The notes below the pieces were generated by a model that was given only the letters and a program-made list of their open reading frames with translations, was not told where the DNA came from and did no database searches. Positions 4,568 through 57,293 of a stretch of 64,000 bases of DNA are shown here, piece by piece; positions within the stretch are counted from its first letter, which is position 1, and every line of letters starts with the position of its first letter. The stretch covers positions 372,001-436,000 of the forward strand of contig NZ_LNTU01000034.1 of the NCBI RefSeq assembly GCF_001558695.1. The letters run 5' to 3'. Source of the DNA: Paramesorhizobium deserti (GTDB taxonomy: Bacteria > Pseudomonadota > Alphaproteobacteria > Rhizobiales > Rhizobiaceae). Position numbers and translations under genes: made by a program.

Positions 4568-5683
4568 TTACTGCTGGATGTAGGTGTACTTACCGTCCTC
4601 GCCCTTCTTCCATTCGTACATGACGTAGCCGGGAAGCTTGGGATCGCCCTTCTCGTCGAAGGAGATATCGCCGAGAACGGTCTTGAATGGGCCCTTTTCC
4701 TTCATCGCGGTCGCCACTTCCTGCGGATCGTTGGATCCGGCGGCATTGGCGGCGGCGGCGATCGCCTGAGCGGCGGCGTAGGAATAGAGCGTATAGGCTT
4801 CCGGCTCGAAACCGGCGTCGCGGAACTTCTTCACCAGCTCGGCATTGTCCGGGTTGTTGCGCGGATCAGGACCGAAGGTGTTGAGCGTTCCGGCAACGGC
4901 GTCGCCGGCGATCGAGGCAAGCTCGTTGGAGACGATGCCGTCACCGGAGATGAACTGCACCTTCAGGCCCTGGTCGGCGAGCTGGCGCATGATCAGGCCG
5001 GCTTCAGTGTGCAGGCCGCCCCAATAGAGAACGGTGACGCCGCTCTGCTTCATCTTGGCGATGAGGGCGGAAAAATCCTTCTCGCCGACATTCACGCCTT
5101 CATACATCACTTCCTTGATGTCGGCTTCGTTGAGCGCCTTCTTGGTTTCGTCGGCAAGGCCCTGACCATAAGGCGTCTTGTCGTGAATGACGGCGATCTT
5201 GGCGTCCTTGAAATTCTCGGCGATAAATTTGCCGGCGATGGTGCCCTGCTGGTCGTCACGGCCGCAGGTGCGGAAGGTGTTCCACAGACCGCGCTCGGTG
5301 AAGACGGGGTTCGTCGAAGCGGGCGTCACCTGGAGAATGCCGTTTTCGGCATAGACGTCGGAAGCCGGGATCGACACGCCGGAGTTGAAGTGGCCGATGA
5401 CGAACTGCACACCGTCGGCAGCGAATTTATTGGCGACCGAGATGCCCTGCTTCGGATCGGAGACGTCGTCGCCGACCGTGATGGTGATCTGCTCACCGTT
5501 GATGCCGCCTGCGGCATTGATCTCCTTGATAGCCTCTTCGGCTCCCCTTCTGATCTGAGCGCCGTAAACGGCGTTGGGACCGGTGATCGGAGCGCCGACC
5601 CCGAAGAGGACATCGGCCCAGGCGCTACCGCCGCAGGCAAGCATCGCAGCGAGTGCAACGCCGGAAAACAGTGACTTTTTCAT
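4568..5683 (-). CDS. livK: Branched-chain amino-acid ABC transporter, periplasmic binding protein
   Basis: High-affinity substrate capture for the Liv transporter encoded upstream on the same strand. The 371-aa precursor starts [15 protein letters not shown], a Sec signal peptide probably cut after AWA (residue 23). The mature part is a type I periplasmic binding protein ([36 protein letters not shown]). The reading frame stays open 40 codons further upstream, but ATG 5683 has GGGAG at good spacing and begins the signal peptide. It lies 130 bp after the small membrane gene and has a strong terminator, so it may also be made from its own promoter in excess of the permease. The exact amino acids bound cannot be read from the sequence. 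Confidence 0.93.
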
Positions 5684-34669: not shown

Positions 34670-34741
34670 TGGCGCGCCTGATAATTTTCCCCTTGCACAA
34701 TGGGCAGAAAGCCCCCACCTTGTGCCGGTGTTCAACAAACG

Positions 34742-34755
34742 AAAGGAGGTGATCC
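34742..34755 (+). promoter_or_regulatory. Extended Shine-Dalgarno, 14-base complement of 16S 3' end
   Basis: AAAGGAGGTGATCC is the exact complement of the 3' end of 16S rRNA (GGATCACCTCCTTT in this class), far longer than the 4-6 bases usual in this window. It lies 1 base before the ATG of a 23-codon ORF (GGAGG core 7 bases away). Confidence 0.8.
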
Positions 34756-34756
34756 G

Positions 34757-34828
34757 ATGTCGAGTGATTTCGTTTTCCGTTGCGAGGCCCGAGCGGATTG
34801 CCTGATCGGAGAGCAGCCTCTCCGTTGA
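34757..34828 (+). CDS. 23-codon small ORF with near-perfect ribosome site
   Basis: ATG TCG AGT GAT TTC and on to TGA 34826-34828; the peptide starts MSSDFVFRCEARADCL and ends IGEQPLR, with two Cys. It has the strongest ribosome-binding site of the window and a terminator 67 bases after its stop, so 34.70-34.93 kb looks like a self-contained short transcript. TTGCAC near 34693 might be a -35 box. I recall similar MSS-starting tiny ORFs behind this ribosome site in other rhizobia but know no name or function. It could be a translated peptide, a leader-type ORF or an sRNA that titrates ribosomes. Confidence 0.6.
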   Translation: MSSDFVFRCEARADCLIGEQPLR

Positions 34829-34895
34829 TCGCATGACGCTGCAGCTTCAGCCGGCCTGTCCGGCAAGCAAAGGCTGCGTAACGGACGGAATTGCG

Positions 34896-34928
34896 GGGCC
34901 ACTCCTTGAGGAGTGGCCCTTGCCTTTT
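34896..34928 (+). terminator. Terminator of the small-ORF transcript
   Basis: Perfect 10-bp stem GGGCCACTCC/GGAGTGGCCC with a TTGA loop, followed by TTGCCTTTT. Oriented with the small ORF; the DUF1674 gene converges from the right and ends at 34961. Confidence 0.85.
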
Positions 34929-55209: not shown

Positions 55210-55407
55210 GCGCCCTATCAATCCGCGACGAGCAGAGACTCCGAGCAGCCGACCGGGACCCATTTTGGTATAAACAGATCCCGGAGGCCCACACCCGACA
55301 GCGCGATGCGTCCTCGGGTGTCGTTATGCTTTGGACTATTGGGCTTCGGCGCGGAATGACCTACCTCTTGCGAAGAACTGTCCTCGCACGGGTAAAAAGG
55401 AAAACGG

Positions 55408-56987: not shown

Positions 56988-57293
56988 ATGAACGACAAGA
57001 GCCTGCCCGATGAGCTTTCCGGCCTGCGCGCCTCGATCGACAATATCGATGCCGCGCTCATCCATATGCTGGCCGAGCGCTTCCGCTGCACCAAGGCGGT
57101 AGGCGTCCTGAAAGCCGAATATGGCCTCGCCCCCGCCGATCCGATCCGCGAGAAGCAGCAGGTCGAGCGGCTGCGCCGCCTGGCGCAGGAGGCAAGCCTG
57201 GACCCCGATTTTGCCGAGAAGTTCCTGAACTTCATCGTCAAGGAAGTGATCCGTCATCACGAGAATACCGCTGCCGAACGCAGCGCTAGTTAA
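56988..57293 (+). CDS. Chorismate mutase, AroQ class
   Basis: Converts chorismate to prephenate. About 101 aa from ATG 56988: LRASIDNIDAALIHMLAERFRCTKAVGVLKAEYGL is the AroQ helical core with the catalytic Arg and Lys residues, and FLNFIVKEVIRHH closes the domain. A GTG at 56979 overlapping the ffh stop is an alternative start. Lies between ffh and rpsP, as in other rhizobia as I recall. Confidence 0.9.
   Translation: MNDKSLPDELSGLRASIDNIDAALIHMLAERFRCTKAVGVLKAEYGLAPADPIREKQQVERLRRLAQEASLDPDFAEKFLNFIVKEVIRHHENTAAERSAS

Follow-up and report, generated by a model that had tools for sequence, protein, structure and literature searches.

The window analysed here is a stretch of 64,000 nucleotides from the genome of Paramesorhizobium deserti (contig NZ_LNTU01000034.1), in which a small unit is located between upstream genes for an acetyl-CoA synthetase, a LysR regulator and a DUF4865 protein and a downstream convergent DUF1674 gene followed by an M48 peptidase gene (Table 1). 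The unit is centered on the 14-mer AAAGGAGGTGATCC (34742-34755, plus strand), followed by a single G and the ATG of a short open reading frame (ORF). The original prediction described this 14-mer as a complete match to the anti-Shine-Dalgarno, and with the addition of G34741 the complementarity reached 15 nt, measured against the 16S tail CTGGATCACCTCCTTTCT of two plasmid-borne rrn copies from the Hyphomicrobiales genera Phyllobacterium and Rhizobium instead of that of the organism itself. A pattern search for the 16S tail gave no match in 21 genomes, its own genome included, in which the 16S end is probably missing or masked. The claim that this Shine-Dalgarno (SD) is far stronger than any other in the window also held, as it was the sole exact site among 11 with three or fewer mismatches (shuffles average 4.26), the runner-up at 57239 having two mismatches; the 14-mer occurs once on both strands of the 5.48-Mb assembly. 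The predicted ATG, 22 further codons and stop were found as 23 codons ending in TGA at 34826-34828, which is indeed too short for ordinary annotation. Starting at an alternative in-frame ATG at 34700 would extend the ORF to 42 codons, but this ATG sits between the -35 and -10 elements of the predicted promoter.

The view of the locus as a self-contained unit was supported by a promoter-like pair before the SD and a terminator after the ORF. The predicted pair stops 20 nt upstream of the SD, and sites of the type TTGnnn-16/18-YAnnnT ending 15-45 nt upstream of the SD were present in 69 of 122 representatives, compared with a mean of 2.8 (range 0-12) in ten control windows; a general promoter scan of the window did not list the predicted pair. 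The 5' end of the RNA would be expected near the short A-rich leader. The terminator had been called near-ideal, which is borne out by its strong 11-pair stem and is slightly generous for its T-run, since the latter is interrupted (TGCCTTTTGT). A simple scan detected terminator-like hairpins in 155 of 158 family sequences, although some were weak or lay in the wrong place, and three of the 158 sequences in one step and four in another were left out for want of a terminator. Elsewhere in the window, positions 55277-55328 (plus strand) matched the Rfam ffh sRNA (RF01793) with 54.8 bits, over its cut-off.

Table 1. Features of the element, in positions of the window.
Feature	Position	Strand	Basis
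Sigma-70-type promoter (predicted), TTGCAC-17-CACCTT	34693..34721	+	Class-wide pattern count
Short leader with UUCAACAAACG	34729..34756	+	CAAC-A-rich leader common to clades; RF01867 model starts at 34733
Shine-Dalgarno GAAAGGAGGTGATCC, 15-nt complement of the 16S 3' tail	34741..34755	+	Recurs over the class
23-codon ORF MSSDFVFRCEARADCLIGEQPLR and TGA	34757..34828	+	Frame kept; peptide not kept in the two larger groups
P1 helix, 5' strand (codons 3-6)	34764..34772	+	Predicted fold, co-variation; helix likewise in the Rfam consensus
16S-tail imitation GCGGATTGCCTG, able to pair with the SD (predicted)	34793..34804	+	-14.9 kcal/mol, own-genome copy L001
Hairpin GGAGAG-CAGC-CTCTCC just before the stop	34808..34823	+	Predicted fold; landmark type in 61/158
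P1 helix, 3' strand, abutting the terminator	34886..34894	+	Predicted fold, co-variation, Rfam consensus
Intrinsic terminator and T-rich tail	34895..34928	+	Stem 34895-34920, 11 pairs

The suggestion had been to search other Hyphomicrobiales genomes for this SD followed by ATG TCN AGN. In several surveys the element was found to recur across Alphaproteobacteria. In a DNA search, matches, some of them weak, appeared in 31 of 61 genomes, the own genome among them. The pattern AAAGGAGGTGATCCNATGTC (SD plus ATGTC) retrieved at least 118 stretches in named contigs, in which the conservation of SD and start is by construction because the loci were chosen by them. The record titles were alphaproteobacterial except for L148, titled only Pseudomonadota, and L099, L115 and L149, which are MAG contigs labelled Gamma- or Deltaproteobacteria and may reflect mis-binning or transfer. 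Longer ORFs among these loci include those of L078 (36 codons), L149 (32 codons) and three Azospirillum loci (L065, L096 and L108), where the SD and ATGTC precede a frame of 57-59 codons that begins like a signal peptide and may encode an unrelated or a fused small protein. When any start base was allowed, 45 of 289 class genomes matched, and a reversed control pattern gave no match among the class-genome matches listed. A slightly looser pattern matched 73 of 151 genomes of the family. In the phylum, 34 of 249 genomes matched, corresponding to 34 of 67 in the class Alphaproteobacteria and none of 182 outside it. Each matching genome held one place in the start-free class survey and the phylum survey, the rows of which were counted by hand; the family survey showed a second place in G573 and in G588, ending in CTG or TTG. 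With the Rfam model, some genomes were found to carry two members, such as the sphingomonad-type genome G245 with L157 (P1 version CATTGTC/GACAATG) and one at a GATGTC pattern, which may be paralogues dividing roles. Three members missed by the regular expressions (L159, L031 and L269) were read by eye. L031 and L269 (near position 1500) are homologues with one extra A inside the SD core (AAAGGAAGGTGATCC) in which the start and an ORF of 24 codons persist; they offer a natural test of the SD exactness needed.

The element resembles a known Rfam family, RF01867 (CC2171, 'Caulobacter sRNA'), which aligned with the window over its full length with 39.2 bits (E 3.1e-7) against a gathering cut-off of 75; the cut-off was reached by none of 20 related loci either. 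The alignment covers model positions 1-159 and includes the leader, the SD, NTG-TC and P1 abutting the terminator. All eight relatives compared also matched at full length below the cut-off (E 3.4e-6 to 0.06), the weakest being L137 (E 0.038) and L044 (E 0.06). Searches with the model, which do not require the SD as such although the match depends on it, gave matches at E 0.01 in 31 of 142 class genomes, of which five exceeded the cut-off, and at E 0.05 in 72 of 101 family genomes, of which none did. Four of 30 class loci found in this way (L173, L176, L177 and L178) lacked such an SD and were set aside as chance hits. Among 14 controls, Caulobacter vibrioides and Deinobacterium chartae matched, the latter outside the phylum, below the cut-off and, we think, by chance, so that sub-threshold matches include chance ones. 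When the stretch was begun at the ATG, no credible match to RF01867 was obtained, only chance-level matches to the terminator, and the same applied to L066; the sequence homology thus rests on leader and SD, and a homology independent of the SD was rejected. L066 (Pelagibacterium luteolum) carries its element at 4860-5049, just upstream of a same-strand FMN riboswitch at 5129-5280.

Kinship with CC2171 is nevertheless supported by the shared build of leader, SD, start and P1 before the terminator, the last being part of Rfam's own consensus. In addition, the five loci above the cut-off (L150-L154) carry the identical SD, a GTG start and 22-26 codons, whereas the window element falls well below 75 bits and shows no credible similarity to the family outside the SD region. 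In Mesorhizobium huakuii, the 215-nt sequencing product MH_s33 was labelled RF01867 by its authors, as given in the accessible part of PMC5596092. Small-RNA expression has been seen for this labelled relative only, and the window RNA is putative. CC2171 is listed as an sRNA, and a literature search that excluded its discovery paper found no description of an ORF; the accessible portions of PMC5596092, PMC11701678, PMC4117421, PMC10117765, PMC7717549, PMC12559287, PMC11005374, PMC2245857 and PMC5082802 hold none.

According to the original prediction, homologous loci with a broken ORF and an intact RNA would favour an RNA over a peptide. No such case occurred among the best 29 of 79 RF01867 places in the family, of which 28 retain SD, start codon and ORF; in the last, L269, start and ORF persist and the SD has gained one base. 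This comparison is biased, as the Rfam model needs the SD region for its match and would miss RNAs lacking the SD. The reality of the ORF was further examined in the 61 of 158 family sequences that carry the landmark hairpin at the ORF end. No frame-0 stop preceded this hairpin (0/61), compared with 33/61 and 53/61 in the other frames, and the frame-0 stop ended 13-39 nt past the hairpin start in 61/61. This included nine sequences with the hairpin in a different reading phase; in five of these (L013, L018, L023, L093 and L142) the TGA comes right after the stem. A length of 16-31 codons was found for 151 of 158 sequences in the true frame and for 19% and 25% in the other frames. These counts are not independent, because a single TGA shared within the P1 strand accounts for many of the frame-2 stops, and the representatives are not phylogenetically independent either. 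In the start-free class survey the start base was A in 25, G in 15, T in 5 and C in none of 45 matches, and the looser family pattern gave CTG at one of 75 places, the second place of G573. The stop-free frame, the placement of the stop and the start base, never C in 45 of 45, argue that ribosomes read the frame and that the frame end matters. The maintained open frame expected of a micropeptide gene is observed.

Conservation of the peptide itself was a different matter. The pN/pS of the sphingomonads was 1.66 (49 sequences, 240 pairs; false frames 0.66 and 0.59) with 533, 572 and 317 differences at the three codon positions, so that third positions differ least, the reverse of a coding pattern. 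The Mesorhizobium-type group gave 1.16 (11 sequences, 34 pairs; false frames 1.5 and 0.95), and purifying selection on the amino acids was not seen in these two larger groups. Values below 1 came from small sets, namely 0.58 from five pairs of nearest relatives, comprising four own-genus sequences and L006 of another genus (0.81 from codon 7 onward), and 0.92 from three pairs of the 25-codon group. L003 has the same peptide, whereas L004 and L005 lack the first Cys and L006 the second. The comparison of substitution rates that had been proposed gave values above 1 in the larger groups, and the idea of a conserved peptide with two Cys was not borne out. The first codons are conserved, which is explained by the RNA helix P1.

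A small protein as the actual product is favoured by the maintained frame, the preserved start codon, the low pN/pS of the two small sets and recurring motifs such as EQPL and TW.VAS. EQPL, however, coincides with the RNA hairpin, which is out of phase in 9/61, and TW.VAS coincides with an imitation of the 16S tail in GTG-type members; as pN/pS also exceeds 1 in the sphingomonads and in the Mesorhizobium-type group, a functional micropeptide is an unlikely answer. In groups with enough pairs the peptide is not the thing that is kept, the reading of the locus as a conserved micropeptide gene is weakened, and it seems to be the act of translation, more than the peptide, that is preserved. The dual-function sRNAs rnTrpL/peTrpL and Spot 42 hold a translated short ORF within a small RNA and make a functional peptide, as described in the accessible part of PMC10117765. 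The window element shares with them the short ORF inside a small RNA and differs in that its type of peptide is not conserved in the larger groups, whereas theirs is functional.

The RNA of the window was predicted to fold with a z of -4.37 and with P1 formed, part of the SD being paired with the T-rich tail in the same fold. P1 was tested with 40 of 154 sequences, chosen as representatives with less than 70% similarity between their 5' strands. The strands paired with their own partners at a mean of -11.2 kcal/mol, compared with a permuted mean of -8.0 (sd 0.43), and none of 10,000 permutations reached the observed mean; the automatic 3' box lay inside the terminator in at least one sequence (L151), and the own 3' box ranked among the best five of 40 in just 20 of 40 and poorly in some. 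Clades carry their own versions of the helix, for example CATTGTC/GACAATG, CATGGT/ACCATG and GTGAGA/TCTCAC. In computed ensembles of 123 representatives, the start codon was more open than with shuffled bodies (p 1.3e-7), except in the mixed 'other' group (0.42 vs 0.46). The SD core was mostly paired in the ensembles (mean unpaired 0.28-0.34) and slightly more open in the natural sequences than in shuffled controls (p 0.013). A stable sequestration of the SD as the resting state was rejected, as the SD core is no more paired than in shuffles.

In most members a GGAU..CC-like stretch within the element imitates the 16S tail and is predicted to pair with the SD. Its z was below 0 in 93 of 114 representatives, compared with 59 of 114 for flanking DNA, and in 107 of 114 when set against permuted SDs. 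The mean z was -1.48 for the MSS type, -1.43 for the GTG type, -1.51 for the other members and -0.37 for the sphingomonads, in which the imitation is weak. It starts a median of 52, 42, 52 and 63.5 nt, respectively, from the start codon and overlaps the frame or the 15-nt footprint beyond it in 40/46, 16/19, 15/21 and 12/28. The stop ends a median of 12 nt (MSS) and 14 nt (GTG) after the imitation, and the end of the imitation falls -15 to +30 nt from the frame-0 stop in 65%, compared with about 10% for the other frames. In L061 the stretch GCGGATCACCTCCG is nearly the 16S tail itself but is located past the stop. Because the ensembles do not favour it, capture of the SD by the imitation is a possible state and not the predicted resting state.

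Considering these patterns, we assign a probability of roughly 45% to the locus being a free-standing RNA gene of about 200 nt, built like CC2171 and working as a ribosome-gated RNA switch. It is proposed that the frame exists so that ribosomes cross the internal imitation of the 16S tail and then stop just past it. Initiating ribosomes would open P1 and cover the imitation, leaving the SD free; upon failure of initiation, the imitation would capture the SD or P1 would re-form, and the RNA would change its state. The output could be a change in stability or the release of a 3' part that acts in trans. The start, the length and the stop would then be selected while the residues are free. Such a switch would account for most of the patterns, with its steps beyond the sequence being ones that we infer. 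Against it, SD capture does not stand out in the ensembles, the imitation is weak in sphingomonads, and the small sets give a pN/pS below 1. Moreover, ribosome profiling of Caulobacter found intergenic ncRNA regions to be untranslated, a general statement in the accessible part of PMC4117421. A further step, doubtful at present, would let the RNA sense free small ribosomal subunits, with the tail of the 16S rRNA in a 30S subunit and the internal copy of that tail competing for one SD.

A simpler use of the same complementarity would be a sponge, in which the near-perfect complement of the 16S tail holds small subunits and the short ORF releases them after a few codons. The recurrence of a 13-14-nt SD over the class and the open start codon agree with this, as do 9 of 15 GTG-start matches that read ATCCAG, extending the tail match to 17 nt where G precedes AAAGG. 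Very high RNA levels would be needed, however, from one place per genome in the class and phylum surveys, P1 and the stop placement would be left unexplained, and the base inserted in the SD core of L031 and L269 does not fit; a sponge is therefore improbable. Less likely still is a trans-acting RNA that pairs with and titrates small RNAs bearing an anti-SD, such as the alphaR8/Sis family. The accessible text of PMC12559287 describes Caulobacter SisA-D as using a 10-mer with an anti-SD signature, antagonised by the sponge RNA CrfA, but CC2171 is unnamed there, and the GATCC half of the element fits 16S.

In leader-peptide attenuators, the choice between alternative RNA folds depends on whether a short ORF is translated, and a comparable control may be at work in the window RNA. 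The short ORF with its terminator resembles such a leader, yet an attenuator of a downstream gene is very unlikely and a cis-leader was rejected, as a convergent DUF1674 gene follows in the window, neighbours vary between clades, and no downstream gene is conserved in cis across loci of this type, where the most frequent co-oriented cluster downstream occurs in at most 16 of 119 loci. A mobile or phage element was likewise rejected after a search of plasmids and phages without a match.

These results place an RNA filed as a Caulobacter sRNA far beyond the reach of its Rfam cut-off, and its translation seems to be an end in itself. If the sensing of free 30S subunits were true, the fate of the RNA would report the initiation capacity of the cell and feed back on it in trans. 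The 15-nt SD kept over the class offers a compact and testable system for the effects of an over-strong SD, and the RNA also lends itself to the question of how cells could monitor their capacity for initiation.
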